From: Spirogloea muscicola
Taxonomy: Eukaryota; Streptophyta; Zygnematophyceae; Spirogloeales; Spirogloeaceae
NCBI GenBank assembly: GCA_009602725.1
Contig: WELB01000048.1
Span: 393,748 to 452,544 of the forward strand
Direction of reading: 5' to 3'
DNA length: 58,797 bases
In this document: one piece after another, positions 1 to 49,174 of the stretch
Layout of the letters: every line of letters begins with the position of its first letter
Position numbering within the stretch: the stretch's first letter is position 1
Notes under the pieces: model-generated
What the model was told of the DNA's origin: nothing
The model's input: the letters and a program-made list of their open reading frames with translations, nothing else
Databases searched by the model: none
Translations under genes and position numbers: made by a program

Positions 1-620
1 AACAAAGAACGAGAAGGGGGCCAGAGGAAGCCAGAGGAAGCGCTAAGAAACCAAAGCACACAAAGAAAGAAAGCAGCTACAAATCACTCAGTAACCCCTG
101 CTAAGCAGCCGCAAATCAGAGAGGCTAGGGTCCTGGAAGTGGGTCCCCTGGACAGAGCCAGAGGCAGCAGCGAGGGCTCGTCCGGCACGAAGGTGCAGCG
201 CACGGGCCATGGACCTCTGCAGCGAGACGGCCAAGCGCATGCGATACACTTGCGCCAGCGACCCGGCTGCAGGAGTACAGAGAGGCGCATCCGATATACC
301 TGAGCCCACGAGCCCGCAGCGTTGAAGTCGGCTGGCTCGCGGCGTCTGCGGGACATAGCCCGCCGCGCAAGCCTAGCCAATAGGTCAAGCCACTGGGACC
401 CAAGAGCCCCGTGCACGTCCACCGCCAAGGGGACGAACTCGTCGGCAGGTGGGTGGTCGGAGTGCTTGGCCGCCTTGCAGCGAGCGGCCTTCGAGGCAGC
501 GTGGCCGGCCCGCGAGGCAGAGAGCCCCAGGTTGGAGCGGTCGACCACATCGGTGGTGACTACATCGGCTATGATCCGCGCGCCACACCTCCCGGCGTGG
601 ACGCCACCAGGTCCACATTA
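1..620 (-). mobile_element. 5'-truncated REL-type LINE 3' end (family A)
   Basis: Reading on the minus strand, this holds the C-terminal end of a retrotransposon polyprotein that stops at 88 with the tail DLRLLSRGY, followed by its 3' untranslated region down to base 1. Upstream segments (PLAVDVHGALGSQWLDLL, then FNAAGSWAQVYRMRL) match the layout of the region after the endonuclease in the larger element at 34379-38145. The coding parts lie in two frames, so there is at least one frameshift near 270 and the copy is dead. Bases 1-274 are almost identical to 5665-5940, so this is a recent family. 5' truncation is expected for target-primed reverse transcription. Confidence 0.7.
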
Positions 621-639
621 CGCGTATGGTGTCCGTCCT

Positions 640-870
640 CTTCGGCTTTGGACATTGTCCATTCTTTTTGGGCTGGCTTTTTTTGCCAGCCCCTCTTTCT
701 CTATGGGCGAGCCTTCTTCTCTCTGGGCTGGCTTTTCAAAGCCCCGCTCACTTCGCCAGTACAGTACGCTGTTGTGGAGACGAGAGAAGCTATTCCGGGA
801 GAGAAGGCGCGCGGAGCGCATGAAATGCAGGGGAGCTATTCCGCGAGAGAGGAGAAGTCCATCCAAACGG
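640..870 (+). repeat. Solo retroelement 3' modules: hairpin and GCGC box
   Basis: A perfect hairpin (GGGCTGGC, a short T-rich loop, GCCAGCCC) lies at about 670-692. It is preceded by a tract reading ggacattgtccattc and followed by ctatgggcgagcc. The same block recurs next to retroelement C-termini elsewhere in the window. A GGCGCGCGGAGCGCATG-like box follows near 807-823 in the opposite orientation. No coding remnant of an element is attached here. Confidence 0.6.
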
Positions 871-899
871 TGGCGATGGTTGGAGGCCAGCCCAAAACG

Positions 900-3200
900 G
901 ATACAAGGGGATCTGCACCTGCGCAGGCTGGGCAGCTCGGGGCCCTCTCAGCAAACCGCGTGTCAGCAACAGCTGAAGTGAGCTGATCCGAAGCAAGAAA
1001 AGCAAGAGCAAGAGGCACCTCCCTGCGCAAGCCCAAGGCTGTTGCCAGTTAACAATTAGCATGGCGGTGCTAGGCCAAGCGTATGGCACATTCAAGCGAG
1101 ATCAAGATGACGCATCCAGGTGGAATTCACACAACACCCAAAGGCCCGGAGCCTCCGTTGCAGCTACCTGTTCGCGTCGCAGTTGTCAGCTTGAGAGGCC
1201 AGCTCAGTGTTCTTAGCGAGGACCAATGACTGCTGTGCATTTTATGGCCAGCAGGTTGAAGGTGCCGCCGGCTGGTTGGTCCTGCTACCCTCTTCTGCTT
1301 GGCTCCTTCACAGAGTAGTCGGCCTCAGAAGTTGCAGGCCCTTCTTGCGGAAGCTGGCGGGACGTCCGTGAGGTGCCACATGCCACCTCCATAGGGGACG
1401 CAACACCTCATTAAGGAGAGTCTGTCCGAGTTGCGCAGGCACCACCCCGTTATATATGTGCTGAATCACTTAATACGCCACCTCCCACAGTGTATGATGC
1501 CGTACATATCGCTGCGCAAGAGGTCGTAGAGCCAGTGCACTCCCTGCGGTGGGAGCAATGAAGCATGTGGGCGCTTGTGTTACAAGGCGTCTTCCTCGAT
1601 GAGCCCACATTTGCACTAGTTCACTCTGCCAGACACAGGAAGGGTACTCGAGATGGCAGTGCATACATCACATAATAGAGCAGTGTTGGTTCACATGCTC
1701 GCATGCAAAGGCAAGGCACAAAGCAACTCAAATACTCCAAGAAACTAGACTGTTAGGAGCTGAGCCTGGCCACGAGCAAGCCCTCCAAGAGCATCTCACA
1801 GATGCTCGACTGGCTGCTCATCTGCAGTAGAGGGCACATCGTTGGAGCATACAGTTCAAAACCGTGCGCCCAGGTATCAAGCAAAGCAAAAACCAACAAG
1901 ATCCAGCGCCAGAGGCTGGCAAGATGCAGTGAGACCCACTTGGCATGCTTTCGTGGTGTACGTATCCCAATCCCTATGGACTTCCTTCAATACTTAGTGG
2001 GCTGTCTTTTCACATCCCTCTCGCTGAGAGCTGCTTCTAAGAATAACTTGAATTCGAAATTTCCCCTGAGCTACATTTTTCCTTGGCGCCAACACATCTG
2101 TACTCGAAAGAAGGCACGCGGTGTGCGGTAGATGGAGAAGAGGCCAAGTCAAGTGTGCAAAGCAGAAGGCAAAGGAAGTGCATTCGATGGGGCTACACGA
2201 AGCGGCGATACCTTGAGGAAGAGACTTACTTTGAAGGCGGCGATGGCTGTAAAAGGTCAACCAAAATTAGATGGCCCTCTTCGAGTAGATGTGGTCCAGG
2301 ATGCACCTGAGAGGAAACGGCAGGACCCAAGGACCGCTCTGGTGTGCCAGTCAGCATGGATGAAGCCCCCTCCACACACTTTCTGTGGTGACGGTGGAGC
2401 ATTCTCTGCATACGAAGAGACGAGCCTGCCATCCCACTGCGCCACCAGCACAACAAGCATTGCCGCGTCATGGCAGCGTCGATTCAATTTCTTCAGCCTT
2501 GTGCGCCCTGGCTCCAACACTGCGAGCACCATCCTGGCATCACAGATATTTCCGTTTGCCGCCTGGGGCCCACTATGGTGCCTGTCCACTTGGGGCTGGC
2601 CTTAGAAAGCCGCCAATACACCTGGAAGTGCCACTGCAACCTCCCGCCACAATGATGCTCTGACGACCGCTTCCTTGTCTAGAAAAGGATCTTCCATATT
2701 CAAGGATCTTCCATGCTCGCGAAAGGGGACCGTGGCTGTGCAATAGCCCAAATGAATAAACAAGATACAGGGAGAAGCCCCATCTTCCTGTTAGCTGATG
2801 TACTAAAGCCACTGCCGACCACATGAAATAAGTTAGACTGGGTCCTGGCATACTTGATCCACTGCTCGTGGTGAAGTGCGTACACCCTGCGTCTTGCGAC
2901 ATAGGTACTCCATAGCTGCTGACGACAGCCGCCTGCTAATGGAAGCAGCCACTTCTACCCGTCCTCTGAGCGGCTTCTTTCTTTATGGGCGAGCCTTCTT
3001 CTGAGCGGCTTTGAGCAGCCAGCTAAATCTTGCAGCCATTCTCTGTATCTCGGAAGTCCACACCTTGTCCATGTGCGTGCCGTCATAGTAGGCCACTTCC
3101 AGCATCACAAGAGCCTACCAGTGACTGGCACTTGGTTGCTGCCCTTTGCGATATACTGCAGTCCTTAAATTTGCGACACGAGTGTCATCAATGACTCAAA
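900..3200. other. Region without a supported gene
   Basis: I see no exon chain, RNA gene or conserved protein motif here. Short open frames exist but lack splice logic or recognisable domains. Around 2240-2275 and 2965-3000 there are degenerate matches to the retroelement 3' hairpin and the gggcgagcc tract, suggesting old, decayed element ends. Confidence 0.5.
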
Positions 3201-3201
3201 C

Positions 3202-5390: not shown

Positions 5391-5664
5391 GCGCTTACGG
5401 TGTCGAGGACGGCCTCCCACCGAGCGCGTCCGCGCCTCGGAAGGGCGCAATGGCGACAATGAGAAGCACGGGCTGTGGCATCGAGCAGTCGTGATGCTCC
5501 ATGTGACGCACATCTGTGACATGAAGCCCGGGCTTGTGTTGAAAACTAGCTGACTTTCCTTAAGTATTGCCTCGCGCCAGTGTCTGGGTTGGCGCGGCGA
5601 GCGAGAAAGAAGAAAGGGCTCGCCCATTGAGGATAGGGGCTGGACAAGCCAGCTCAGAAAAGAA

Positions 5665-5945
5665 TGAACAAAGAACGAGAAGGGGGCCAGAGGAAGCCAG
5701 AGGAAGCGCTAAGAAACCAAAGCACACAGAGAAAGAAAGCAGCTACAAATCATTCAGTAACCCCTGCTAAGCAGCCGCAAATCAGAGAGGCTAGGGTCCT
5801 GGAAGTGGGTCCCCTGGACAGAGCCAGAGGCAGCAGCGAGGGCTCTCCCGGCACGAAGGTGCAGCGCACGGGCCATGGACCTCTGCAGCGAGACGGCCAA
5901 GCGCATGCGATACACTTGCGCCAGCGACCCGGCTGCAGGAAAGTC
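5665..5945 (-). mobile_element. Second copy of LINE family A 3' end
   Basis: This is about 98% identical to bases 1-274 and in the same orientation, including the 3' untranslated segment and the RLLSRGY tail. It is joined abruptly at 5941 to the GCGC box that ends the family B element beside it, so one copy inserted next to or into the other. Confidence 0.75.
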
Positions 5946-5959
5946 TACCGGTCACCATG

Positions 5960-6400
5960 GAAGAGAGAGAGAAGGCGCGCGGGGCGCATGAATTGAAAGG
6001 GAGGCCAATTCAAGCCAATACATTGTTCAGGCAGAGTCGAGTGCAGACTAAACAATGCTACATAACACGGAGACCTAATCTAAGGTACCTAAGATGACAT
6101 TAGTACCCACGGGTGAGCACAAACAAATCTGACAAGCTAACTTGGGGAGCTGGAGCGCCGCCACGAAAGCCGGAGGCCTGACTTAGAGCACGCCCTGCAC
6201 GTTGATGAAGAGCCATGGAAGCGACGGGCGATTGCGTGGCGGGCGAGCTGGTTAAGTAGCTCAAGCCACCGAGCGCCCAGTGCCCCATGGATGTCAATTG
6301 CCAACGGGAAGAACTCGTCTTCCGGCGGATGGTCGGCGTACTTAATCTCTTTTGCCCGAGCGGCGCAGGCGACCGCATACCCAGCCTAGAGAAAGGCCCT
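5960..6400 (-). mobile_element. 5'-truncated REL-type LINE 3' end (family B)
   Basis: On the minus strand the coding remnant stops at 6100 with SLSDLFVLTRGY. Its 3' untranslated part runs to about 5965 and ends in a GCGCCCCGCGCGCC box. The upstream coding part shows the PLAIDIHGALG-type segment in a disturbed frame. Near-identical 3' ends occur at 32608-32860 and, more diverged, at 31137-31290, 42350-42500 and 44092-44250. Confidence 0.65.
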
Positions 6401-16839: not shown

Positions 16840-17300
16840 TGACGACAGACGCGTTCGACCGCGCCACACCCCACTCTCATTGCCTCCAAGGCAGGGCATG
16901 CGGTGGCCAGTGCTGCTCGAGGCAAGGAGGTGAAGTATAGTGATCCTCCGCGGGAGGACGAGTTGTTCCCCCTTGCCCACTCGATGGCCACGGCGCGCTC
17001 AGCGCTCGGTGGCTCGAGCTCCTGCGCCGGCTAGCGTGCGGCGCTGTGTGGCTACGTTACCTCAGGGAGCAGGCCAATTATAATGCGGCAGGCTCTCTCG
17101 CTCAGGTGTATCGCATGCGCCAGTCAGTACCGCTGCAGCGGTCAATGGCACACGCGTTGCATCTGCGTGCCGGTCGCGCTTTGCTGCAGCCTCTGACAAT
17201 GGACAAAGGACCCGCTACCTGGAGACTAGTTTTTCTGACCTGCGGCTGCTCAACAGGGGATATTGAGTACCCAGTGGCCACTTGGATCGCTGTATGCTTT
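16840..17300 (+). mobile_element. LINE post-endonuclease segment and tail (family A-like)
   Basis: Reading plus: a VKYSDPPREDELFPLA segment near 16932, then NAAGSLAQVYRMRQSV near 17075, RAGRAL, and an end near 17275 reading LRLLNRGY in a shifted frame. This reproduces the domain order after the endonuclease of the 34379-38145 element. Frames are broken, so it is a pseudogene fragment. Confidence 0.6.
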
Positions 17301-17639
17301 GACGCTTTTCTGGCCCGTTCAACATCTGTGCATTCCTCTTCCTGGGCTGGCCAATAAGAGCCATCGCCCTCTACTGCAAGAGTCTCTCTCTCTTTCACAG
17401 CCCCCGCCCTATTGTGTACATTCCTTTCGTCACTCCGTTTCGGATTGGAAGAGCTATTTCTTCTTATTTTCTTGCTACAACCCGAGGGCGCGGCAGCCAA
17501 ACGCCCAAAGAAGAAGTGGCTCTCCCAAGGAAGGAAATTGCTCGCCCAAGGAAGGTAGGGGCTGGGAAATGGAATCCGCCATCTGGGAAAGGCCCGCCCA
17601 AAGAAGAAGGCTCGCCCATAGAGAAAGAAGAAGGCTCGC

Positions 17640-18225
17640 CCATAGAGAAAGAGGGGCTGGCAAAGCCAGCCCAAAAAGAATGGACAATCTCCAAAGCCGA
17701 AGAATGAGATGCCGAGGAAGGACTCCTCTACTCTACCAATCACGACAACATACTAGGGAAGCTCAGTACCCGCGAGTGAGCAACATCAGGTCCGAGTAGC
17801 TCGAGGCAGGGAAGGAGGCACTCCGCCGAGACCCGGAGGCCGCGGCCAGAGCGCGTCCTGCGCGCGTGTGACAGCGTGGGCAAGGGATCGCTGGAACGAT
17901 ACCGCCAAGCGCATGCGAAAGACCTGGCGAGCGACCCGGCGGCGTTGAAGCGGGGCAGCGCCCCGGGCGGACCCGACCGCCGATCAATAGCCTGACGAGC
18001 AAGCCGCTGGAGGAGATCCAGCCAGCGGCTGCCGAAGGCCCCGTGAACATCTATCGCCAGGGCCGCGAACTCATCACCGACCGGGTGAAAGAGGGGCTGG
18101 CAAAGCCAGCCCAAAAAGAATGGACAATGTCCAAAGCCGAAGAAGGAGATGCCGAGGAAGGACTCCTCTGCTCTACCAATCACGACAACATACTAGGGAA
18201 GCTCAGTACCCGCGAGTGAGAGTGG
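17640..18225 (-). mobile_element. Family C LINE tail flanked by 133-bp direct repeats
   Basis: The minus strand carries a coding remnant (about 18050-17763) that ends ASSYSDLMLLTRGY. The 3' block after it (17780-17648: 3' untranslated tract plus hairpin) occurs again at 18220-18088 with three mismatches in 133 bases. A third, inverted copy lies at 28704-28836. The second direct copy has no coding part attached on its other side. Confidence 0.65.

Positions 18226-19215: not shown

Positions 19216-19340
<125 letters not shown>

Positions 19341-19741: not shown

Positions 19742-19835
<94 letters not shown>
19742..19835. repeat. (CT)47 microsatellite forming an intron polypyrimidine tract
   Basis: About 47 CT units run without interruption into cgcag, the splice acceptor of the first visible RPA1 exon at 19840. 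The microsatellite is therefore the polypyrimidine tract of that intron. Confidence 0.9.
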
Positions 19836-19838: not shown

Positions 19839-19839
19839 G

Positions 19840-22104
19840 GTGTACTACATCTCCAAGGGCAATCTGCGGGCGGCAAACCGACAGTACAGCTCCGTGCCCA
19901 ACGACTATGAGATGAGCCTTGGGCCTGCATCAGAGGTAGTGGAGGCCGAGGACGACGGCGGCGCCGGCGCGCCCATCCCCACTGCCGCCGCCTTCCACTT
20001 CACCAAGATTGGCAACCTCGGCCCCAGTGTCGGCGGTCGGCAGCTCGTGGGTGAGGGCCCCATACCCACCAAATCTCCTCGAGGCTCGTCGTGGCAGCGG
20101 CAACGGCCTGGCTGCTGACTCTGGGGCGATTTGGTGCACAAGACGTGATCGGCGTGCTACAGAGCGTGGCGCCGGCGGCGAGCGTGCGGCGCAAGAGCGA
20201 CGGCTCCGAGATCCCCAAGCGCGAGATCACCATCGCCGACGACAGGTGGGCTCTCCGGCGCAGCCAGCCGCAGGCCGTGCTTTGCCTGCGCCCGGCAGCG
20301 GTCCCCAGCCCGATGACGACGAGCCGGCTGGCCGGCGGCGGCGGGCGGGGCGCAGCCAGAAGACGGTGGTCGTGAGCCTGTGGAACTCGCTGGCGACGGA
20401 GGAGGGCGAGCAGCTCGCGGTGCTCGCCGCGCACTCGCCTGTCGTGGCCATCAAGGGCCTCAAGGTCGGCGACTACCAGGGTGAGCCTCCCGGCGGCGCC
20501 TCTGCCAGCCGCTCACCGGCACTGAGCCCAGTTGCCAGCACATTTAGATAACTCCCACATAATTAGCGCAATTTCTGTAGCTGAGCTGTGCGCTGGAGCT
20601 GTTGATGTGGTGGCCCCCTGTGCCGGCTCGCTAATTGTCACCAGGAAAACTTGCGTGTATTGATATAATGTAAGGCCATAGTGGCCAAGTACAACGGCAA
20701 GCACATCTGGTGACATGCATTACGCAATTGACCAGCTCAGTAACCGCGGGTCAACACATAATGATCGCTAATTGATGGCAAACTGATGCCATCAGGGGTG
20801 TCTCTGGGGACGACCGGGCGGAGCGTGGTGGTGGTGAACCCCGACAGCCAGGAGGCTCGGGCGCTGCGGTCATGGTGAGGGCCTCCTCTCTCTGCCACCT
20901 GCCTCCGACACGGCGGCCGCAGCAGAAGCAGCAGCTGAGCGCCCTGCCCTTCGGCACTGATGGGCTTGACCGCTCACCGCAGGTTCGACAAGGGCGGCGG
21001 GAGGGAGGCGCCGCTCGCGCCAGCTGGGGCAGGCTTTGCCGGCCGGGCCTCTGGCGGCCGGTCCATGTACACCGAGCGCACCACGCTGCGGGCGCTGACG
21101 CAGCCGTCGGTTGGCCAGGATGGGGTAACGACCAAATGCCTGCCACCCATAATTACTGCCAATTTGCAGCCATCTTGGTGTGCTCGCTCGCAATTAAGGA
21201 ACGATGTATCAGAGCCGAAGCCGACGCCTCCTCGTGCCTGCGTGTCAGGTGGTGTACTTCAACGCGCGCGTCTTCCTGAGCTTCGTGAAAGCGGATCAGG
21301 CCATGTGGTACAGCGCATGCGAGGCCTGCAACCGCAAGGTCGCCGACTCCGGCGCCGACCAGTACTACTGCGAGGCCTGCCAGAAGACTTTCGCTTCATT
21401 CAAGCGCAGGTGGGGCCTGTCAGCTCGATTGCTGGTGCTCTCACTCTCAAGTTCAAGGTCTGGTCGGCATCAGCACAGCAAGTGGAGGTGGCAATTGCTT
21501 ACCGAGGGGCCTGTCATTTGACAGGTATGTCATGAATGCTAAGGCATCGGACGCGACCGGCGAGGCATGGCTCTCGGTCTTCAATGAGCAGGCGGAGCAG
21601 GTTCTGGGCATGCCAGCCGACGAAATCGCTGCCATTCGCAACAGCGTAAGAGCCACTTATGTCGATGACTTTGCCCCTCCCTATCGAACTGCAAACCTTG
21701 GCTGCAGTTCAGCTTTTGAAGTGCGGCCGAGCTCCATTCGGTTCACTTAGGCCAGTAAGACTTTGGCACATTGAGAGCCGTGACTCGGCAAAGCATGCTC
21801 GCATGGCAGATCAAACGAAACTGTGCTGAGTTGCAAGATTTGGGTGGGGCTATAGCAACCCAGAATGTTGCACAAAGCTGGACTTATTGTCTGAGCTGAA
21901 GATGCTTGCTTGGAACAGGACCCGAAGGCGTATGAGGCGGTTCTAAAGCGGGCATCGTATATGCGTCCTTACGTGCTGCGCCTCAGCGCGGTCGTGTCGG
22001 AGTACAGGGAGGAGCGGCGGCAACGTATCAGTGTGCGGAGCGTCCACGCCGTCGACTGGGCCGCCGAGAACCGTCTCCTGCTGGAGCAGATTGCGGCTTT
22101 CTGA
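19840..22104 (+). CDS. RPA1: Replication protein A 70-kDa subunit (N-terminus missing)
   Basis: Eight in-phase exons: 19840-20050, 20143-20245, 20356-20480, 20796-20874, 20983-21124, 21249-21409, 21525-21645, 21919-22104. The product is the single-stranded-DNA-binding large subunit of RPA, which acts in nuclear replication and repair. The visible part starts inside DNA-binding domain A (VYYISKGNLRAANRQYSS, NDYEMSLG), continues through domain B (DVIGVLQSVAP, KTVVVSLWNSLA, VAIKGLKVGDYQG) and domain C with a zinc ribbon (ACEACNRKV ... YYCEACQKTF; Cys spacing 2-13-2), and ends with the C-terminal helix region. The N-terminal domain and the start of domain A are absent; they should lie upstream of the (CT)n intron, in or near the gap. 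No frameshift is seen in the exons. Identification is confident from several conserved blocks. Confidence 0.92.
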
Positions 22105-29160: not shown

Positions 29161-31230
29161 GCAAGTTCCTTCCCTTCGGACTGGCTTTCAAGAGCTTTCT
29201 TTGGGCTGGCCTCTCACTGCCATGGCCTACAGTGGAAGAGCTAGTTTTTCTATCACAGCCCTCGCCCAACAGCTTACTTCTTTGTCCATTGGCTTGTGCT
29301 GCTCTTCACAGCTATCGCCCCTAGTGGGAGGATGGCCTCTCGTTCTGTCTTGGGAGTAGCCACATCTTCGACCACAAGGAGGGCTGTGTAAGGCCAGCTT
29401 ATGAAAGAATGGCAAGGCCAAGAAGTGAGCTCTTCAAATGGGGACAGGGAATCTGAATGGCCGCCCAGTAAGTACAAGGTCCAAAGCGCTGAAAGGCGCC
29501 AAAACGACACAGCTATGTAAGAGACTACAGCAAACGGGAGCTTAGTAACCCCCAAGTCAGCAGCCGCAAGTCGGAGTAACTTGCAGCTGGAAAAGAGGCA
29601 CCCCATCCAGACCCAGAAGCAGAAGCCATAGCTCGGCCTGCCCGCAAGTGCATTGCGTGAGCCTGGGACCACTGGAGAGAAATTGCTCGCTGATGGAATT
29701 GCTAATTGGAAGGATAAGTCGGAAGCGTACACCCAGCAGGATAACGAGCGACCACTGAGCAATGGCCGCCCGGTAACCGCTGGTCAGCAGCAGCCGCATG
29801 TCGGACACACTTCCAGGACGGCCTTCCTCCTCCCACATCTGAAGAGCTTCTTCCGATTTCCAGCGACGTGGCAGGCCGCGCAGCGGCTGGCGCTGGACGT
29901 GGACGCTTAGCGCACCGTAGTACAAGCGGGCGGCAGATCGCGCGGGAGCTCAAGCAAGCGGGATGGCACGTGTGGCTCCCCCACCGCGTACGGCGCCGGT
30001 GAAGGCGGCCCTACCGCCCGCTCTGCCTTGTCCCGGCTCCCTTCCCAAATGGGAAAACGTCGGAAAACGTCGAAAAACGGGAGGCCCGCCCACTTGCTGA
30101 CGTCTTGGGAGAACAGTATCCTGCTTTTTGCGTCATCCGGCCCCTTTTTGGACCTTCAGAATTCTTTTCGGGCTGGCTTTTCACAGCCCTTGCCTCCATG
30201 GGGAGAGCCACTGCACTCTTTTAGAGCTTATACATTCCTTTAGGCTGCCTTTCACTGCCTTATATTTGAAATGCTGTTTCTTTCAACTAAGCCCCAAGAG
30301 CCGCACCCCACTTGCGCTCCCCGAAGAAGAAAAGCGCGCGTTCAAACTGAGAGCAGTGGCTGTGAGAGGCCAGCCCAAAGGAATGGACAAGGAAGAAAAT
30401 GAGAGAGAGGAAGATGGATGACTTCCGATAAACAGCTCTTCTAATATAGGCCAATGGCTGTGCGTGACCAGCACAGACGACTGAAAGTCAGCCAATGGGA
30501 GCTCAATGACCCCGGGTCAGCAGCCGCAAGTCGGAGGAACTTGCAGCTTGAAAGAGCCAACCCGACGAGACCCAGAAGTAGCGGCCAAAGCACGGCCTGC
30601 CAGCAAGCACTGCGTGAGCCTGGGAATGTGGGAAGGAGATGGAAAGCTGCATGTGGAACACCTCGGCAAGCGACCCGGCAGCGGAAGCCAGAAGCTCGTT
30701 TTGCTGCCCCTGCCAACAAGTGATGGATTCATTGATGCCGTGCAAGCCGCTGCAGGAGGTCCAGCCACCGACTGCCGTAGGCCCCGTGCACGTTGACCGC
30801 CAGCGCCACAAACTCATCACAGGCAAGGCGATCCTCGTCTTTGGGCTCGTTTCGGCTAGCAGCCTTGCTAACCGCGTGCCCTGCTTATATTGGTGGGTTG
30901 GCGGAGTCGGCGGAGTTGTAGTCACGACGTCTGCGATGATGCAGGGATCCCCTCTGGGTGGGATGGCGAGAGGTCAGCGCGCTGTGTATGGAGACGACCG
31001 TCAGCTCCCAGCTGAATGGGCGTGACAGACGTGATTTCTAAGGCCACGGTGTCGAAAATTTCCAGCAACACGTCAAATATGCCATCTCACAGGAGGTCGT
31101 GAGACCCGGTCCGCTCTCCCCCGTGTGCACAGAGAGAAGGCGCGCGGTGCGCATGAAATTGAAAGGGAGGCTTGTTCAAGCCAATGCATTGTTCAAGCAG
31201 AGGCTAGTGCAAAGTAAACAAGGCTACATG
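29160..31230. mobile_element. Mixed-orientation LINE tails
   Basis: Minus-strand ends can be read near 29545 (LRLLTR-like with frameshift), 29785 (VSDMRLLLTSGY) and 30506 (SSSDLRLLTRGH). The last has about 400 bases of preceding coding remnant (SLAEVFHMQLSIS, PTAVGGWTSC). Plus-strand hairpin halves lie at 29097, 29200, 29230 and 30170-30190. A family B-like 3' end with GCGC box starts at 31137. No host gene is seen. Confidence 0.5.
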
Positions 31231-32100
31231 ATGCGGAGGCCTAAACTAAGGTGCCAAAGGTGACACTAGTATCCACGGGAGAGCACAACGAAGCATGTGC
31301 GCAGTCAACTCCGCGCCGCGTCGGCGTTGCGTACTCCGCACTGGCACTGCACCACACCGACGAGGCAGGGCGGGTGAAGGCCCAGGAGCGGGTGGACAGC
31401 CCTCCGGAAGACAGCGTCTTGATCGGACAAGGTCTGGAAGGGCCGGAAGGGGCACAATGATATGGAACAACTCCCCGTGACTTTCGCGGAAGTCGCTCAA
31501 CAATCTCTAGTCAATAAATGCAGATCGGATCCAGAGGGCGGAAAAGCGCGCAAGGCAGAGGTTTTGGGGAGAACGATAAGGTGCGGTGTCTGCGTGAGTT
31601 GAGAAGGAGGCCAGATCAAGCCAACACACTGTGGGGCAAACGGTGGCCAGCCCAAACGAGTGGGCGACGTTCAGGGAGAGAGGTGAAATAAGCTTCCAGA
31701 AGGAGGCAATGAGTGCGATAAGTGGAATGGACAATGGACAAGGCCTGGTGGAAGACGAAGGCGCGCGGTGCGCATCAAATGAGAAAGAGGCCAACGCAAG
31801 CCCGCACACTGTCTGCAAGCAAAACAAAGGAAAATCTAAGAGTGGCTGAGGTGATAAATTGGTAAAGATAACTAAATGGGGACTCTTTTACCCACGAGTG
31901 AGCACATACACATTTGCCAGACTGATCTGGGGCTTCGGAGCACTACCCTGCAAGCCATCGGCCTGGCTTCATGTGCGCACAGCACACCGATTTGTGGCTA
32001 GAGCCTAATAACGTAAAGTAAACGAGAGACCCTTTCTGTGACTAGCAATTAATGCTTCGGGACGCTAGTAGTATGTCCTAAGCTACCGTCCCGACTACGT
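31230..32100 (-). mobile_element. Decayed family B-like tails
   Basis: A GCGCGCGGTGCGCAT box at about 31758-31772 and a cccacgagtgagcac terminus near 31890 (reverse of a VLTRG-type end) mark two old minus-strand copies. The coding parts are beyond secure reading. Confidence 0.4.
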
Positions 32101-32400
32101 CGACCGGGTGGGCTAGGCGAGAGGATGTGCTTCCAGCCCAGATGGGCATGCCGGCAGCCTATTTGTCATATTTGCAACGTCGTGTGTCAGCCTATTTGCA
32201 GCGAGCTCAAACTCATGCTTTGCACCAGAAAGCGAGCCTTAGCTGGTGGCACAAGAGCTTGTCAATCGCCATCCGGTATTCGAGCATCAGTTAGCGACTT
32301 CTACGTGCTGACTCGTGGTTACTGAGCAGGTCAGCTTAGCAGCAGGTGATGTACATCTGTCAGTTGGCTTGCCTTTGTACTTGGCCAGACAGGCCCTCCA
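32100..32400 (+). mobile_element. 5'-truncated copy of the 34-38 kb element (family D)
   Basis: Plus strand, aligned with 37930-38220: the same GMPAAY-type segment, QKAGRALAAGT-like segment (here altered by substitutions), SGIRASVSDFYVLTRGY ending at 32325, and about 75 bases of matching 3' untranslated sequence (gcttagcagcaggtga onward). Truncated at the 5' side, it shows that the 34-38 kb element belongs to a family that has copied by target-primed reverse transcription. Confidence 0.75.
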
Positions 32401-32607: not shown

Positions 32608-32870
32608 GCACAGAGAGAAGGCGCGCGGGGCGCATGAAATGAAAGGGAGGCCAATTCAAGCCAGTACATTGTTCAGGCGAAGGCTACTGCAGACTAAACA
32701 AGGCTAAATATACCTAAAGTAAGGTGCCTAAGGTGACATCAATACCCACGGGTAAGCACAAACAAATCTGACAAGCTAACTTGGGCAGCTGGAGCGCCGC
32801 CACGAAAGCCGGAGGCCTGACTTAGAGCGCGCCCTGCACGTTGATGAAGAGCAACGTCGGGAAGGAGGCG
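32608..32870 (-). mobile_element. Family B LINE 3' end, second close copy
   Basis: This is closely similar to 5965-6205: GCGC box, 3' untranslated part, LFVL-type C-terminal end and part of the preceding coding segment. It stops abruptly near 32850, where unrelated GC-rich sequence begins. Confidence 0.65.
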
Positions 32871-33555: not shown

Positions 33556-34378
33556 AGGGCCAACTTTGACGATGGTTTCAATGTCTCCTTGTATTTTCTT
33601 GTAGTAAAGCAACAACCTTAATTTCCCCTTGACTTATTGTTGTTCTCTCATCCTTATATCTACGGTAGTGGTAAATAAACATTCTGTAGTAGTAAGGATG
33701 TTCCATGAAAGCAAGTCAAGTTGGCATATGCAACTCTGGCGAGCAGGAAAACCTGATCCCACCTATGAAAGCCGAGTGGAAAGGAAGGTCGAGAGTGTAG
33801 TAAACGTGAGGCAGAGAAGCACCCCAGCACACAAGCCAAAGACATGAGGCACTGAATGCAGCGCCTGGTAGTAGTGGCAAGGGCGCTTCCAAGGTGTCTG
33901 TATACACCTTGGAGGCCAGCCCAAACCCGTAACGAGCATACAAAGATTGGGAAATGGAAGGCTTCATTGATGGCGGTGTAGTGAAGTCGCCCCTACACAC
34001 GCAGTTAGTGAGTCAGTAAGTCGTCCTTGTTAAGTTCGGCTGTAGGGGGTTTAGGGACCAACCCACTACACGGCAAAAGCACTAGCGCATAGCGCAGCGG
34101 AAGACTGGCCCTGTGGCGCCGCCGTCCGGCGGCGACTCCACCTCCTGGGCGCGAGCCAGCAACTGGCCCTTTACGGGCGCAGCCACGGACTCCCCGCAAC
34201 GAGCCCCGCAAAAGGCTGCGGCGGCGGCTGCGGCGGCAAGGCTGCTCCTGGGCTTCACCGGGCCGAACTCCTTGTCGAGCCTCAGCCCCCAAGGCTCCTC
34301 GTGCTTCCCCGTGCCACCCCCCCTCCTCAGCAGGCCCGCTGACTCGCGTGCGCCAGCGCCCCCGCCGGCCCCGACGCC

Positions 34379-37300
34379 ATGCTGGGGGCTGCTAAGAGCC
34401 GAGGCGGCTCGCGCAGCTCTTCGCTTCGGCGCGCCGCTCGCTCTTACGGCACCCGCAGCACGACTGCTGCGTCGAGGGCCGCCACTGCGTCAGGGCCCAC
34501 CCTGCCCATCCTCTCAGCGGCCCCTCCAGCTCCTCTCCCTCCCCCTGCTCCAGCGAGTGCGGAGGCCGCCGCGAGCGAGGGTCGCAGCCCTCAGATTGTG
34601 CTCACGCCTGTGGCGACCACGACATCAACGTCAACACCGGAGCCCGAGTTCCTTGGCGTCGGAGTGTCTGCGCCTGTCGAGCAAGCCCAACTGCTTGCAC
34701 ATCCAAGCTCGGCCACCTCGGATGCAGACTCCGAGACTCCGAACATGGACCCGCGAGTTGGCATTGTCGTCAGCCCACCACGATCAAGTGATTCCCCCAC
34801 CTGGCGGCCTTTGAGTTTGTTGGCTCTGCTCTGTCCCTCTCCCCCCCCAGCTCCACCCTTGCACTCTCCAGTTCATCCCCCAGTGCCCGCTCCGGAGCCG
34901 CCACCGTTGCTCCCTCTACCTCCTCTGTTACCTCTACCTCCGCCGCCGCCTGCGCGGGTTGTGGAAAGCTGTCATCAAGCCGGAAGCCGCCCTGGACCCG
35001 GTTGCCGTCGGCAGGGCCGCTCTTCTCAACAGCGCCCAGCCCGCACTGGCCTCGGAGAAGCCCCAGCCACGCGGGTCCCCTGTCCGGGCTGCCAGCGCGG
35101 TTACCGCCCAAGAGGATTGCCAGTCCATGCTCGATCATGCCAGAACCAACGAAACCGTGAAGAGCAGGCAGCAACGTCGCACCTGCCGGGCTCAGCCCGT
35201 CCTCCACCACCTCCCTCTCCCGAGAGCTGGCATTGGGCAGCAACAGTGGACCTCCTTCCCCTCCTCATCCCCGACGGGCTCCACAACCTCCGCCACATTC
35301 CCAAGTGGGCACGACGTGGGTGCTGCAAGGTGCTGACGCCCATCCTCTCACGCGTGGAAGCTGACCCTCTGGACGAGACGGCCTGGGCGCTGTACCTGCT
35401 CTTCCCCAAGCTCGTGCTTGGCCCTCTTCCCTCCTTTGGCGTTGGTGGCCGCAAATGCCTTCAGGACAGATTGGCTCCCTTCGCCAGCGGCAAGTGGGAG
35501 GAGCTGGCCCAGCAGCGTGCAGCAGCCGCTCGGGTCGCGCTCTCAGAACGACGTGCACGTGGAGGCACCCGCAACCAGCCCTCTCAACAGTCCATGATTG
35601 GCAACCTAGCGCGTGCAAGACGCTTTGGCAGAGCAGGAGAGCTCTCTCGAGCCGCTCAGGCCCTCTGCCCCGACCCCTTGGCAGCAAAAAATGAGGCCAC
35701 TGAAGCCACCTTGCGCCAGCTGCATCCTCCTCCTCAGCACCCTCTTGAGCCCTGGGTTGGCGAGCTCCCCACTCCTCTTGAACTTTCAGCAGATGCGCTC
35801 CGCACGGCCCTCACCAAAGCCCCCCGAATGGTGTCTGGAGGCCCTTCTGGATGGCTCTTCGAGCACCTACGGGACATCTTCCAAAATGGAGACGAAAGAG
35901 GCTTCTCTCTGCTCCTCTCCACCTGCCGGCACATCACCAGAGCCACCATCCCCCCCCGCATCGCCGACGCTCTCAACTCCAGCCACCTGCTGGCCCTGGC
36001 CAAGCCGTCAGGTGGTGTCAGGCCCATCGCCATGACAGAAGTAATAATGCTGCTGGTGACCAAGGCTTTGTGCGGCGAGCTAAAGTCCCAGCTGTCCACC
36101 CATTTTGCACCCCACCAATTTGGTGCTGGCATGTCCTGCGGGGCAGAGGCCCTCGTCCACGGGATCCGCGCAGCGCTGGATGTCAACCCATCACACATGG
36201 TCCTTGGATTGGACATAGCCAATGCATTCAACACTGTGGAGCGCAACGCCATCATGGAGGAGCTGCGTGATCACTTCCCCTCCTTAATTTCCTATTTTCT
36301 CATGGCCTATGGCCGGCCAGGGCGGCTGCTGTGGCGTTCGGAGGAGTCTTGGACGACCTTATGGTCCACAACTGGCACACGCCAGGGAGATCCCCTCAGC
36401 CCCATACTTTTCGCCTTGGCACATTCCCGAGCACTACGGCGCACCCAAAGCCTGCACCCGAACCTCCTCTTTCCCTCCTATGCAGACAACACACATATCG
36501 TCAGCCCACCGTCAGAAGTCATGGCGGCTTATCCCTTGCTCGTACACGAACTGAGCACAATGGGCCTGCGGGTCTGCCCCACCAAGAACGTGGCATGGTC
36601 ACCACGCCCCCTTCCCACCAACCTCCAGCTCCCACCAGGCTGCCAGACCCCTGCCAATGGGCTGGCTGTTCTCAAAGTTCCCTTGGCACACCATCCCACG
36701 TTGCAGAGGACTTGCGTGAACGCCTGCAGCAACACCTTGCCCCCCTTCCCTCCCTTCCCCTCCTCGGAGATCCGCAGCTGGCGCTGGCCATCCTTACTCG
36801 CTGCATCGGTCAACGAGCTGGCTACCTGCAGCGGACAGTTGCCCCAACGGACATGGTGGGCGAGCTGTACAAGGAGTTCGACACCTCCCTCCGGCAACCC
36901 CTGGCTTCCCTGATTCAACACCCATCCTTCCCCTCACCTTCATCCTCCCTGCAGGCATCCCTTCCCACACGAATGGGCGGCCTGGGCTGTCGGTCACTTG
37001 AACAGACGGCGCAGGCAGCCTTTCTCGGTTGCTGGCACCAGGTTGCCTCCCTTCTTCCCTTGCGCTTCCCTTGCCTGGCCGGCCCTGCAGCCGAGGTGGA
37101 GGAAGGCTCCTTGGCATTCCAAGTACAATTGAGGAGCATCCGGGAGTCAGCACTCGGCTCCTTCCCGTCCCTACAACCCCTCCTCACCCCCTTCTCAGGG
37201 CTTGCTCAAGCACCAGACAAAGCGGCACAGGCCAGACTCGTTGCGGCAGTTGAGGACGAGCGTCGCAAGGCGTTGAGGACGATGCCGGATATCAAGACCA

Positions 37301-38145
37301 ATCCAAGGAGTCTGGCACGTCTCACATCGCTCGCAACGCCTGGGGCAACGGATTGGCTCACCACAGACGCAATCCACAACGCTTTCAAAATCAGCCCTGA
37401 AGCATTCCGGACGCTTCTCCAGCTGTTCCTGGGCCTGCCCCCCACCTGCCTGATTGGAGTAACTCAGTGTGAGTGTGGCTTCCGTGCGGAGGGCGGAGAC
37501 CTAGCCATCCACATGCTGCGGTGTCCCACAGTGCCTGAGGTGGTGGGCGTCCACAATCTCCTACAGGACGCCCTGGCGGGCTTGATGCGCGACGCCGGCT
37601 ACCGCGCCATCGTTGAAGTGAGCAATGCAATGCCCATCACCACGGATTCCCAGGGACGCCATCACCGTCGCACCCTGGACATTGTGGGTGTACAACCTGG
37701 CGGAGGCCCACGAGCTTTGGTTGATGTGGTGGTGACTGAGGCATACAAGAGTTCCGCTTCCACACACATTGCTGGTCACGCAGTGGGAGGTGCTGAGCAG
37801 AAAAAGCTCCGACACTACTCAGACTACCCCCGCAGTGACCACCTCCTCCCGGCCGCAATCGACACTTTCGGCTGCTTGGGTCCTCGCTTCCATACCCTAC
37901 TCGAGAACATAGCGAGTCTGGGATATGCACGACGCGAGGATATGCTCCCAGCCCAGATGGGTATGCCGGCAGCCTATCTGTCATTTCTGCGACGTCGAGT
38001 GTCAACCTGTCTGCAACGAGCTCAGGCGTATGCTCTGCGTCAGAAAGCTGGTCGAGCCTTAGCTGCTGGCACAAGAGCTAGTCAATTGCCGTCCGGTATT
38101 CGAGCGTCAGCTAGCGACCTCTATGTGCTGACTCGTGGTTACTGA
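34379..38145 (+). pseudogene. Near-full-length REL-type (R2/NeSL-group) non-LTR retrotransposon
   Basis: The polyprotein starts at ATG 34379 (Pro/Ser-rich N-terminal region), with a CCHC-type zinc finger CPGCQRGYRPRGLPVHARSC at residues 234-253. The reverse transcriptase follows: motif A LDIANAFNTV (about 36213), motif B TRQGDPLSP (about 36379), motif C YADN (about 36478). A thumb region leads to a CxC...H...C knuckle (about 37468-37527) and a restriction-like endonuclease (TLDIVG near 37672, LVDVVVTEAY near 37715). The conserved post-endonuclease part KLRHYSDYPRSDHLLPAA and tail SDLYVLTRGY end at 38145. No apurinic endonuclease domain is seen, as in the R2 group. One base is missing near 36685, so the downstream part is in another frame, and motif C has Asn in place of the second catalytic Asp. 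The copy should be inactive, but it is the best reference for all the truncated tails in this window. Confidence 0.88.
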
Positions 38146-38660
38146 GCGGGTCAGCTTAGCAGCAGGTGACGTACGTTTGTCCAATGTGCTTGCCTTTGTA
38201 CTTGGCCACAAATGGCCTCCCCATCTCTCAATATTCACGCATTCCCTCCAGGGGATAGTTTTCCGGCAGCTAGTCTGTCGGATCTGCGGCTCCTCACTCG
38301 TAACTACTGAGTGATCCATCCTCCCTGCTGTGCTGACATTACATCTTCAGGCCCCTCTGTAGCTCCTAAACGTTTGTCGGCCCCTCCGAACCCTTGTCAA
38401 TTCTTTTTGGGCGCCCCGCGCGCCTTCTATCTTTTGGGCTGGCTTATCACATGCCTTTGCCCCCATTTGGCGTGCCACTTCTTCCAGGGGTGTGAGCGGG
38501 TCGCCCCAAGGCCCGCCTTGCGGCAGGCCGAATTTCCTCCCTTGAACGGGTGGATCCTGGCGAGGGTATATTGTGTTTTAGCACGGGCGGGGCCCGCCTC
38601 TGGGCGGGGCACCTGCCCGGCAAGCCAGCCCGCCACCTGGCGGGCCACTTGTCCCAGATG
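38146..38660 (+). mobile_element. 3' end of family D element, then further LINE tails
   Basis: 38146-38225 is the element's 3' untranslated region, matched by 32326-32400. It is followed at 38250-38310 by another C-terminal remnant (SFPAASLSDLRLLTRNY, family E), a GCGCCCCGCGCGCC box (38411-38424) and gggctggc. GC-rich palindromic pieces (gggcggggcccgcc) lie near 38585-38600. Confidence 0.65.
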
Positions 38661-42539: not shown

Positions 42540-43130
42540 GGCACGCTGGTGTATCGCGACTGCCTGGGAAGAAAGTGCTCGCCTATAGAGAAGAGGGGCT
42601 GCCAAAGCCAGCCCAAAAAGAATGGACGAAGTCCAAAGCCAAAGAAAGAGAAAAGCGCGGCCGAATTGACTGGTGGCTGGGAGAAGCCAGCCCAAAAGGA
42701 ATGGACAAGGTCAAGAAGAGCCGAATGGCGCAGAAAGCAGGGGACTAAGTGCTAAGACGACAACGAGGCTCTCAGCGCTGCACCTGCCGGCCGAGCCCTC
42801 GCTGCCTCTGGCTCTGGCCAGGGGACGTCCTTCCAGGAACATAGCCTCTCTGACCTGCGACTGCTTAGCAGGGGTTACTGAGTAGTTAGTAGCTGCTTTG
42901 TTTCTTCTTGTGTGCTTCTTTCTTAGTGCTTCGCCTTAGTGCTTCGCCTGGCCCCCTTCTTCTTGGGCTTCTTGTACTCTGCTCATTCTTTTTTGGGCTG
43001 GCTGTTCCAGCCCCTATCCTCAATGGGCGAGCTCTTTCTTTCTCAGTAACCTCTAGTCAGCAAGTGCAGGTCAGAATAGCTAGAGGGCGGGAAGACGTCG
43101 CCAAAGAAAGAGGTGCCAAAAAGGGACTAC
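42540..43130. mobile_element. LINE tails in both orientations
   Basis: A minus-strand hairpin lies at 42594-42613. A plus-strand family A remnant ends near 42884 (SDLRLLSRGY in a shifted frame, preceded by FQEHSL). A plus-strand hairpin at 42994-43012 is followed by the gggcgagctc tract. A minus-strand end starts near 43048. Confidence 0.55.
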
Positions 43131-43289
43131 ACTAAAACACTACAAAATACAAGACCATGCAGAAGAAGTGGCACTCCCAATGGGGGCAAGGGCTGTGGAA
43201 AGCCAGCCTAAAAAGACTTGACAAAGGTGCTAAGGGGCCAAAAAGCGGTTAGCAGCTCGAAGGGGCCTGAAGAAGCTGTCAGAACGGGG

Positions 43290-44080
43290 GGAGGATGGAC
43301 CACTCAGTAGTTACGAGTGAGGAGCCTCAAATCCGACAGACTAGCTGCTGGAAAACTATCCCCCTGACGAAAGCCGGAGGCCGCAGTGTCGACGCCACCA
43401 GGTCGACACAGCGCCGTCGGCCCTCTGGAGGATTGGCATAACGGAAATATTCTCCATCGCCACCGCGTATCCGGCCTCCTGGAAGATGCCGAATATTGCA
43501 TCTCGGAGGCGGTCGTGAGCAGCTGTACATTCGCCTCCAGTGGCGCAGCGGAGGATATGCGCCGCCAGCTCCCCTGGGTCCGTCGACTGCTCCTCCCAGA
43601 AGAAGAAGTGGTACTCCCAATGGGGGCAAGGGCTGCGAAAAGCCAGCTTAAAAGAATTGACAAAGGTTCGAAGGGGCCTAAGAGCGTTGAGCAGCTACAA
43701 AGGGGCCTGAGGATGCGATGGGAAAAACAGGGGAGGATGGATCACTCAGTAATTACGAGTAAGGAGCCTCAGATCCGACAGACTAGCTGCCGGGAAGCTA
43801 TCACCCTGACGAAGGCCAGAGGCCGCAGCAAGAGCACGGCCAGCACGCAGATGCAGAGCGTGGGCCATGGACCGCTGGAGGGACACTGACAATCGCATCC
43901 GGTATACCTGAGCCCACGAGCCAGCTGCATTAAAACCAGCCGGCTCGCCGCGCCGGCGGGATACAGCACGCCGCGCGAGCCTGGCCAGCAGGTCGAGCCA
44001 CTGGGACCCGAGAGCCCCGTGCACGTCCACTGCCAGGGGAATGATTCATCTGCAGCCGGGTGGTCGGCGTGCTGCTCAGT
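43290..44080 (-). mobile_element. Two family E LINE ends
   Basis: Two minus-strand remnants stop at 43304 and 43746, both with SFPAASLSDLRLLTRNY. The second has the longer preceding coding part (VDVHGALGSQWLDLLARL, FNAAGSWAQVYRMRL, RAGRALAAASG) up to about 44030. Each is followed on its 3' side by the gactcgttgctcaacgctct-like untranslated tract and gcttttcgcagccc-type stem. Confidence 0.65.
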
Positions 44081-44089: not shown

Positions 44090-44940
44090 TGAGAGAAGGC
44101 GCGCGGTGCGCATGAAATTGAAAGGGAGGCCAATTCTAGCCTTACAAATGTCCTCTTAAGTGGGTAATGAGCTGGCTTTGGGGGGACACCAATATCCCCG
44201 AGTGAGCACATGCATACCTGGACAAGCTATACTGAGGAGCCGAACCACCACCACGGAAGCCACTAGCCTGGGCTATGCACGACCAGCACGCTGGTGAGTC
44301 GCGAGTGCCTGGGAGCGCTGACCCGCGAGTGAGCAACATCAGGTCGGAGTAGCTCGCTGCAGGGAAAGAGGCACTCCGCCGGGAGCGCTGTAGACTCAAT
44401 GATAGCCGCATTCTATAGCATGCAATGATGGCTTGCGGGGAACGCTAGAATGCCCTAAGCTACCAGCCCGACTACGTCGGCGGGCATCGACATGCAGTGC
44501 CAGGCATGCAAGGAAGGTTCAGAAGAAAGCGGCTGCTGATATGAAAGACTCGGCTGTGAAATGCCAGCCAGATGCATACAGGTGTTCATGACGGAGCCCA
44601 AGGCTAGGCAGACAGGGCGCCCTCAATACCCCCGTGTCAGCAGTAGGAAGTCAGATGAGCTGAGGGGAGGAAGAGCAACCCCGCTGCGCAAGCCAGAGGC
44701 TGCTGCAAGGGCGCGACCAGCGCGGCGGTGCAAAGCAAGCGCTTGGGAGCGCTGCAGGGACAGAGACAGTCGCATACGGTAGCAGGACACCAGACCCAAA
44801 GGCACCGAGCCACCGGGAAGGGCAGCACCCTGCTCCCGGCGCCGCTGGTCAGCTGGAGAGGCCAGCAGCGAAAGTAACGAGGACCACCGACCCCCGTAAC
44901 ACCCATGGATGTCCATGGCCAGGGGGGGTAAAAGGTAAAA
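44090..44940 (-). mobile_element. LINE tails next to the TPT gene start
   Basis: This holds a family B-like end (44092-44260), a family C-like remnant near 44320-44380 (SYSDLMLLTRG), and a longer minus remnant 44637-44920 (MDIHGCYGGRWSSLLSLLA, CYRMRLSLSLQRS, SDFLLLTRGY). The last breaks off about 20 bases upstream of the transporter's first ATG. Confidence 0.6.
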
Positions 44941-46822: not shown

Positions 46823-47121
46823 AGAACTTTTCACTTCAGAATCTGATCATGAGGGCTTAAAAGTATGAGGCGGCGCCGGCGGGCTATGTCTCAGAACCCT
46901 CGTTGGGGCGACGTGCCCCACACCATACTCCCCTCGGTACTGGCCGGCTGCGCGCACCGTCAGGGATGCCCGCATCCGGTGGTCGTGCCGCGGGCCAGTA
47001 TCGAGGGGAGTATGGTGTGGGGCACGCCGCCCAAACGAGGGTTCTGAGACACAGCCCCGCCCACCGGCGTCGCCTCAGATTTTTAAGCCCTCGTGATCGA
47101 ATTCTGGAGTGAAAATTCTAA
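46823..47121. mobile_element. Foldback (long inverted repeat) element 1
   Basis: Two arms of about 130 bases, roughly 46823-46955 and 46990-47121, are reverse complements with scattered differences (for example ccccacaccatactcccctcg in both). The loop is about 35 bases. There is no coding capacity of its own; it resembles a foldback MITE. Confidence 0.75.
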
Positions 47122-47124
47122 TGA

Positions 47125-47820: not shown

Positions 47821-48216
47821 CACATAGACCTGTCTTTGACTACTTGATTACTTGGTGCATGCACTAACAGGAGATCCTATGGTTTATTGTAAGGCTACCA
47901 TGTGGGCTACCTCATTCTCGGCATCTGGATTGGCTTCGAGGTCAAAGCTTGTAGTCACATCTGTGTGATTGCAAACTGGACTCTGGCGGCCATTGGGCCG
48001 ATGCGCGGATCCTTCTGCAGGACGCCTTGCTGATGGCCGCCACAGTCCGTCCTCCAATCACGCAGTTGTGACTACAAGCTTTGGCCTCGAAGCCATTGAG
48101 CCCAATCGAAATGTTGAGAATGTGGTAGCCCACATGGTAGCCTTGCAATAAACTGTAGGATCTCAATACTGTTAGTGCATGCACCAAGTAATCAAGTAGT
48201 CAAAGACAGGTATATG
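47821..48216. mobile_element. Foldback (long inverted repeat) element 2
   Basis: Arms of about 155 bases (about 47821-47980 and 48055-48216) are reverse complements with small indels; both contain gactacttgattacttggtg and its complement at the outer ends. The central part is about 75 bases. It is not related by sequence to element 1. Confidence 0.8.
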
Positions 48217-48219
48217 TGG

Positions 48220-48850
48220 CACCCTCTAGTGTTACTGGGGGCGTTGTTGCGCTCAATAGATTGGTTCAGAAATTAAGATTGGAAAACTCAAGGAGTTCAG
48301 ATTATGTCGAATGTCAAATGAGCAGGGCACAACAGTTCTTCAATGCTGATTTCTCTAGCCAGATCCACATCACCCTATGCGTATCAGGTACATGAGTTTA
48401 GGGAATGGATGCTAGTAAAAGCGTTCCCACATACAATTTTCCATGAAAGTCTAAAGATGAGAAGTCATCATGCGATGCCTTCCCTGCAATGGCCTCAGAA
48501 AGGCGGAACCTGGTATATGGTAGAAACTGTATACTTGTAACCGGTATGTGTAGGTTGGCATGGATGAGCCAGGGCAGTGGCGGGGAGAGCACTGCAACCT
48601 CTTGAAAGCGATGGATGGTGGACCAGCCACGCCAATGTTGCTTCTATGGATAATGTTGCTGTAGAATGCAGCCAAAGACAAGCCAAGGAGACGTTTCTTG
48701 TAGAGAATGTGTTGAGGTCATGCTGTACTGTCGATCGCTCACAAGAAAATACCTTCTCTGGACGCTGCCGTAGCTTCACTTGTAGTATGTTGGATTCAGG
48801 TGCAAGTGCCGGACTACAACTTTAAATTTGGAGGTTTCACTGGATCGCAT
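48220..48850. other. Spacer, nothing recognised
   Basis: No exon chain, RNA gene or element end is recognised in this stretch. Confidence 0.45.
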
Positions 48851-48857
48851 ATATAGA

Positions 48858-49174
48858 GGTCACGCAGTGGTCACGCAGTGGGCAGTGCAGAACAAAGGAA
48901 GATGCAGCACTACTCCGACTACCCTCGATGCGACCAGCTCCTGCCAGCGGCAATCGACATCTATGGCTGTCTGGGTCCTCGATTTCACACCCTCCTCCAA
49001 AACATTGCCAATCTAGGCTACACACGACGTGCAGATGTGTTTCCGGCTGAAATGGGCTTGCCAGCTGCATATTTGTCGTTCTTGCGACGTCGAGTTTCGG
49101 CCTGTTTGCAGCGAGCTCAGGCTAATGCCTTGCATCAGAAAGCTGGGCGAGCTCTAGTTGGTGACAGAAGGCTT
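48858..49174 (+). mobile_element. Orphan post-endonuclease fragment of a family D-like LINE
   Basis: The plus frame reads HYSDYPRCDQLLPAAIDIYG, GCLGPRFHTLLQNIANLG, LPAAYLSFLRRRVSACLQR and QKAGRAL, closely matching 37800-38060. It is open throughout but cut at the 5' side and, unlike the other copies, also lacks the LTRGY tail: it ends at the single N at 49175. The truncated 3' side suggests either a later deletion or an assembly join at the N. Confidence 0.75.

Follow-up and report, generated by a model that had tools for sequence, protein, structure and literature searches.

We have analysed a stretch of 58,797 nucleotides (the window) from the alga Spirogloea muscicola (contig WELB01000048.1, positions 393,748 to 452,544), in which many fragments of long interspersed nuclear elements (LINEs) end in one and the same protein tail. 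R2-like LINEs with a restriction-like endonuclease (RLE) are an already known kind, and judging by the frames described below the tail is the natural C-terminus of LINEs of this type that have an R2-like reverse transcriptase (RT). Our interpretation, which we hold with reasonable confidence, is that there are several autonomous families with an R2-like RT and a C-terminal extension of about 50 residues that is kept as protein and not as RNA, that the 5'-truncated copies are products of target-primed reverse transcription, and, with the least certainty, that the terminal motif may dock at the endonuclease/thumb region and that recognition of the RNA may be by the 3' untranslated region (3'UTR).

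The tail in the window

A six-frame scan of the window found 16 tails, on both strands, that match a strict pattern, and a profile built from the final 40 columns of the seven families gave 31 matches in 29 open reading frame segments (E up to 1), as against none in ten windows shuffled in 50-nt blocks. Of the 29 segments, 18 reach the stop codon that closes the tail, and with two tails found by the strict pattern only (minus strand, 31266 and 18203) there are 20 stop-ended tails, 6 on the plus strand and 14 on the minus. The initial annotation, which had reported at least twenty fragments on both strands with one tail, is borne out in this. The tail has a conserved block, YRMRLSxSLQRSxAxALHxRAGRALAAASG, then a linker of 10 residues and the final SxSDLxxLTRGY. 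Family C has the variant LTRNY or LTRTY, a decayed copy near 30506 has LTRGH, and LNRGY is read at 17263. Matches to a library of the superfamily cover 12,348 of the 58,797 bases.

In the case of the family A element two overlapping frames are present, which on their sequence are one protein split by a frameshift. The first matches RVT_1 (7.3e-17) and, weakly, a zinc finger in Pfam; the second has no match in Pfam or in a search of PDB sequences, and in it the tail is preceded by a CxC..HxxxxC knuckle and an RLE-like R..D..D..K core. In the window copy the RT has the motif YADN, as against YADD in an intact relative (L087). Positions 34379-38145 had been taken as a polyprotein closed by the tail after the endonuclease: the tail does follow the CCHC/RLE region, but the single frame does not stand.

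Families across the genome

We searched the genome (153 Mb in 471 contigs), and the family copy numbers obtained are lower bounds. With the C-terminal 377 residues of element A as query, 109 scored candidates gave 110 matches, one of which is the window copy; many are 97-98% identical and nine lie within frames of 1267 amino acids (aa), so that family A is young. For tail queries of families B, C, D, E and F there were at least 150 scored candidates each, all at least 94% identical. Six loci were fetched for long frames, four being intact from stop to stop (A2, 1350 aa; D, 1434 aa; E, 1453 aa; F, 1418 aa) and two mostly undetermined bases (N), and five further loci yielded one intact A (1267 aa), one incomplete frame each for B (843 aa) and C (718 aa), and again two that are mostly N. 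All seven usable families (intact frames for A, A2, D, E and F, partial for B and C) end in the tail, though all seven were retrieved by way of the tail or its neighbourhood, which leaves room for relatives that have no tail. Twenty loci at the best RVT_1 matches were taken as tail-less controls; 15 have the motif YLDD[IF] in a long frame, as in long terminal repeat (LTR) elements, and 5 are unclassified. The loci chosen in this way are mainly LTR elements, and none could serve as a tail-less RLE family for comparison. The best RVT_1 matches at L001-L012, L015, L016 and L018 in part are long frames with YLDD[IF], several with chromodomain-like ends, and are thus LTR retrotransposons.

Many copies within a family are 94-100% identical in the tail, and it might be supposed that the tails are alike only because the families are young. 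We give this next to no credence: families are only 41-45% identical to family A, decayed fragments with 65-74% DNA identity also carry the tail or remnants of it, and the saturation of synonymous sites between families (see below) excludes youth as the cause. The proposal in the initial annotation of a superfamily of restriction-enzyme-like (REL)/R2-type LINEs with one tail, rather than one young family, agrees with this divergence.

Class membership

The seven-family profile matched R2Tg at 1.4e-12, other R2 proteins at 1.5e-10 and 7.2e-9 and L1 ORF2p at 4.5e-4, a closeness of the RT to R2 that is measured against PDB sequences only. The CxC..H..C knuckle and the RLE-like R, D, D and K are invariant in the seven families, and the putative RLE is assigned on these motif residues and their position; it has no Pfam match. 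Matches of the RLE profile to a chaperonin in PDB (E 0.64 and up) we take as chance only, and a search with it of GTDB genomes and IMG/VR found no relative among these prokaryotes and viruses, which says little. The tail profile had no match in PDB sequences. A zinc finger (zf-C2HC_2) was found in A below cut-off, with C..C..H..C/H motifs visible in the family alignment, and there was no Myb match in four frames.

As in R2-like non-LTR elements, copies are 5'-truncated with a fixed 3' end, and there are no LTRs. Insertion into 28S ribosomal DNA (rDNA) was sought in the sampled flanks and not found: around 60 fetched copies the flanks, none longer than about 400 nt, differ from each other and have no Rfam match, rRNA included, and on this sampling we do not count the families as R2 proper. 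The window likewise has no Rfam match.

Conservation along the protein

Pairwise identities were taken by segment for 15 family pairs, with the seven families aligned along the protein. The N-terminal, proline-rich part is 17-56% identical and is the only poorly conserved part of the protein. The other values are 37-82% from zinc finger to RT, 50-83% for the RT core, 39-77% for the thumb-linker, 43-88% for CCHC-RLE, 25-79% for the RLE end, 36-89% for the helix-like block, 41-91% for the RAGRALAAASG block, 0-50% for the variable linker and 58-83% for the last 12 residues. The last 12 residues are thus about as conserved as the RT core, and are set apart from the rest by the free linker. The tail is not the most conserved part of the protein, as RT core and RLE have similar identity. 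The earlier view, of strong differences between the families upstream and none in the tail, does not hold, as the seven are homologous along the protein with similar identities in RT, RLE and tail; the apparent contrast arises because truncated copies have flanking DNA upstream.

Selection on protein or on RNA

In the last 12 codons of five family pairs the proportion of nonsynonymous differences (pN) is 0.11-0.24 and that of synonymous differences (pS) is 0.66-1.02, the latter being saturated. These codon comparisons show that purifying selection keeps the tail as protein, and in this point, selection on the tail, the earlier interpretation is upheld.

The initial annotation also suggested that the coding sequence of the tail doubles as RNA structure. 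On this explanation it would be an element at the RNA 3' end, bound by the RT and conserved for RNA reasons; short copies do usually retain the tail plus the 3'UTR, and R2Bm binds its own 3'UTR RNA (PMC10499050; here and below, papers are cited for the parts of their text available to us). We consider it very unlikely, given that codons for the same residue differ in 126 of 180 comparisons (70%) in the last 12 columns, including switches between AGY and TCN for Ser and between CGN and AGG for Arg. The corresponding numbers are 281 of 413 for the helix and RAGRAL block, 1172 of 1875 for CCHC-RLE and 3022 of 5083 (60%) for RT and thumb, all from 21 family pairs that are not independent, and 89% of 499 other 12-column windows with enough same-residue sites have codon turnover at or below that of the tail. 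The last 120 coding nt have no excess folding over shuffles in any of the seven families (z of +0.48 for A, +0.48 for D, +0.99 for E, -1.12 for F, +0.70 for B, +0.30 for C and -0.01 for A2), and 82-nt copies of the 3'UTR alone exist (L082).

The 3' ends

Read from the point where copies diverge, of which there is one per family, the 3'UTRs are 92-145 nt long, have no poly(A) and end in TTC or TCT; for A2 and H the 3' end is from one copy each. Folding of the 3'UTR end is on the whole better than that of shuffles, with z of -1.92 for A, -1.83 for A2, -1.15 for H, -1.11 for D, -1.83 for E, -3.98 for F, -2.48 for B and -1.20 for C. Taken singly, the fold is clearly significant only in F, which none of 200 shuffles equalled, and in B, which 2 of 200 did. 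Seven of the eight families, all but E, have a stem-loop with GGC/GCC arms whose start lies 41-48 nt from the 3' end. MAFFT sets the hairpins of the A group and those of the B/C/D/F group in different registers, and we claim no covariation, the homology being unproven. Pieces of the B 3'UTR about 60 nt long, all of which begin at a CTTC near +72 from the stop, are met with repeatedly at unrelated sites (L028, L059, L069 and, in the window, 28465-28528 and 28585-28644).

Truncated copies and possible mini-elements

LINE copies made by target-primed reverse transcription begin at the 3' end of the RNA, and because of this 5'-truncated copies keep the tail and 3'UTR. Retention of the tail in truncated copies had been read as itself a sign of function, a reading that is not supported, since 5' truncation predicts such retention.

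It is possible, although we think it rather unlikely, that many of the short pieces are not random 5' truncations but SINE-like (short interspersed nuclear element-like) mini-elements in their own right, mobilised in trans. Not all of the starts are random. The best case is in family D, where 6 of 16 fetched copies (L037-L040, L057 and L058) have one start, within 5 nt, and one deletion of 110 nt, with tail and 3'UTR retained. With up to 3 mismatches allowed, the D junction has 28 occurrences in the genome and a reversed control has none. Of the 28 places 22 are reverse and 6 forward, an odd imbalance that is unexplained. If a discrete 5' end with a shared derived change is taken as the mark of such an element then D alone has it, while in E the start recurs.

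For family E the tail start has 504 matching places, and a pattern that reaches 18 nt further upstream has 431 (up to 2 mismatches each), and among 100 exact E tail places listed there are 36 with no listed exact upstream match. Among 20 of the 36 that were retrieved, 10 have their start no more than about 8 nt from GGCTCTTCATC, 9 run on upstream with changes and 1 is N. Starts at this hotspot were found in 5 of 8 copies of a first batch and 2 of 3 in the window, but in 0 of 10 of a sample spaced down the list, and as the listing order is biased the hotspot share is only roughly known. Against mini-elements we also have that most D and F copies start elsewhere, and that the E starts vary by several nt with CTTC at the joint, which fits repeated joining at microhomology.

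The last 12 nt of the 5' flanks are pyrimidine-rich (0.68, 24 copies, p=0.002), and the pyrimidine share of the 3' flanks is 0.57 (52 copies, p=0.02). The starts near CTTC, taken with the pyrimidine-rich 5' flanks, suggest microhomology at the joins. Short E copies with starts a few nt at most from GGCTCTTCATC (5966-6215, 32612-32852, L027-L030, L034 and ten of L092-L111) often follow pyrimidine-rich DNA.

Nested insertions and targets

The 60 fetched copies are of families A, C, D, E and F, and 52 have a 3' flank that can be tested, the rest having no readable stop or containing N. The 3' flank matches the superfamily in 29 of the 52, as against 112 of 446 chunks of the window and 20 of 1311 chunks of the LTR-chosen loci, neither background being a random genome sample. 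In 20 flanks the match is at most 20 nt from the junction, 15 in the same orientation and 5 in the opposite (p=0.04). This excess over both backgrounds and the common orientation could mean that the tail or 3'-end DNA is a preferred landing site for sister families, which we regard as doubtful. The targets are spread from -3302 to +137 around the stop codon (the -3302 being L061, probably a low-complexity match), 3' ends are simply the commonest repeat, and the pyrimidine-rich flanks fit a loose CT-rich target.

At L075 an F insert is flanked on each side by its target, about 6 bp being shared, and L082 is an 82-nt B 3'UTR insert within C. The chain B-E-B-F at 28465-28836, with each unit ending near its own 3' end, could be due to repeated insertion or to template jumping. 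Upstream of element A no continuation of the adjoining family C copy was found.

Features of the window

The family A element and the other pieces of the superfamily are listed in Table 1.

Table 1. Superfamily features in the window
Feature	Position	Strand
Family A element, first frame: C2H2-like zinc finger and reverse transcriptase (RVT_1), motif YADN	34343..36913	+
Family A, second frame, frameshifted relative to the first: thumb/linker, CCHC knuckle, putative RLE core, helix, tail SASDLYVLTRGY, stop	36271..38145	+
Family A 3'UTR: stem-loop, no poly(A); 3' end inferred from divergence point of copies	38146..38248	+
Family C tail (LTRNY) and 3'UTR, directly abutting 3' end of element A, same orientation	38249..38407	+
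Family B fragment, tail SLSDLRLLSRGY	1..274	-
Family B 3' end with tail, broken upstream by E insertion	5584..5966	-
Short family E copy with tail, inside B copy, start at E hotspot; B-like sequence resumes at 6231-6385	5966..6215	-
Decayed B/C-like fragment, tail FSDLRLLNRGY	16989..17266	+
Family F fragment, tail YSDLMLLTRGY and 3'UTR	17607..18088	-
Second F 3' end, head to tail against first F fragment	18087..18220	-
Family H (A-like) 3' end, tail SISDHYVLTRGY	20641..20777	-
Head-to-tail chain of 3' ends B, E, B, F; tail in F part	28465..28836	+
Decayed F-like fragment, tail SSDLRLLTRGH	30497..31029	-
Short E copy, end LSRGY, within F-like element	31131..31288	-
Decayed E-like tail, SLANVYVLTRG	31891..31968	-
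Family A-like fragment (84%), tail SVSDFYVLTRGY	32118..32399	+
Short family E copy with tail, start at E hotspot	32612..32852	-
Family B-like fragment with tail	42775..43040	+
Family G 3' end, tail YSDLHLLTRGY	43043..43126	-
Family C fragment, tail LTRNY	43161..43386	-
Family C fragment, tail LTRNY and 3'UTR	43576..44075	-
Family D fragment, tail SSDFLLLTRGY and 3'UTR	44522..44937	-
Family A2 RLE/helix fragment, cut upstream of tail motif	48868..49171	+

At 17600-17652 there is a 24-bp tandem repeat with the family F 3' end as its unit (CTCTATGGGCGAGCCTTCTTC), which is what slippage at the 3' end of a LINE should produce. An open frame on the minus strand at 9597-10508 matches the RCK domain of Slo-like potassium channels (5.2e-14) and is a probable host gene among the LINEs. 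Runs of 123 A (19216-19338) and of 47 TC (19742-19835) near a stretch of N are probably the edges of an assembly gap.

Comparison with known systems

With regard to R2 (R2Bm and R2Tg), the families have the same domain order of putative zinc finger, RT, CCHC knuckle and RLE, an RT that is closest to R2, the two Asp and the Lys of the RLE, and a structured 3'UTR at the RNA end. The RLE residues of R2Bm are Asp996, Asp1009 and Lys1026 (PMC10499050), whereas here the acidic spacing is 15 and not 13, and the Lys is 27 and not 17 residues on. Unlike R2 the families have no single rDNA target and an extra conserved C-terminal motif, and the four frames scanned have no Myb match. No motif of this kind is described in the available parts of three R2 structure papers, nor did we find it in the open literature as far as its text is available, Repbase being outside that scope. 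Literature matches to the letters LTRGY with 'retrotransposon' were, in the text available, judged to be chance letters such as LTR-Gypsy. The open literature also gave no paper joining RLE, non-LTR and green algae, or RLE and Chlamydomonas.

Zepp copies are nested and clustered, and in this Zepp and the Zepp-like L1 elements of green algae resemble the copies described here. Zepp is of the L1 clade and ends in poly(A) (PMC3747384), while our families are R2-like and without poly(A). Dualen/RandI is an RLE-bearing LINE reported from green algae (PMC8226300, PMC3747384) and has the RLE in common with our families, but Dualen has both RLE and an apurinic/apyrimidinic endonuclease (APE) (PMC4640811), and a Pfam scan (E up to 0.1) of four full-length frames found no APE family. 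The NeSL, HERO and R4 clades and Utopia are alike in having the RLE at the C-terminus and differ in that the Pfam scan of the same four frames found neither Ulp1-like protease nor RNase H. HERO includes non-specific families and some that are microsatellite-specific (PMC4640811).

Proposed working and significance

By analogy with R2Bm (PMC10499050), the zinc finger and RT region would contact the RNA and the target DNA, nicking would fall to the knuckle and RLE, and the RT would copy from the end of the 3'UTR. Behind the RLE comes the extension of about 50 residues, with helix-like block, variable linker and the 12-residue SxSDLxxLTRGY. The two least certain steps are that recognition of the RNA may rest on the 3'UTR, and that the tail motif may fold back on, or dock beside, the endonuclease/thumb module and be needed for a working particle. 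The tail probably packs against the RLE module or binds a partner, and a structural or docking role behind the endonuclease seems the likeliest. RNA 3'-end binding or target contact by the tail as protein, which the initial annotation put forward, are further possible roles.

Three results weigh against this proposal. AlphaFold2 on 481 residues, with rows from the window only, gave a mean pLDDT (predicted local distance difference test) of 40.8 and was not used, so that there is no structural support for a docked tail; a search of PDB sequences with the RLE profile or the tail profile returned no RLE; and the 3'UTR-end folds of the six families other than F and B were matched by 9 to 31 of 200 shuffles.

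A more speculative extension, to which we attach rather little weight, is that the 12-residue motif is a docking peptide dedicated to the clade, holding the endonuclease in place or bringing in a host factor, and that with pyrimidine-rich targets and 5' microhomology the families form a self-nesting community that prefers each other's 3' ends, a self-made safe harbour that also feeds mini-elements.

LINEs of the RLE type underlie the R2 gene-insertion tools, and the region behind the endonuclease is little described. A conserved terminal motif that follows a free linker is an easy target for truncation, and the presence in one genome of many young families, with clean 3' ends and readable junctions, provides a good natural record of how these elements begin and finish an insertion.

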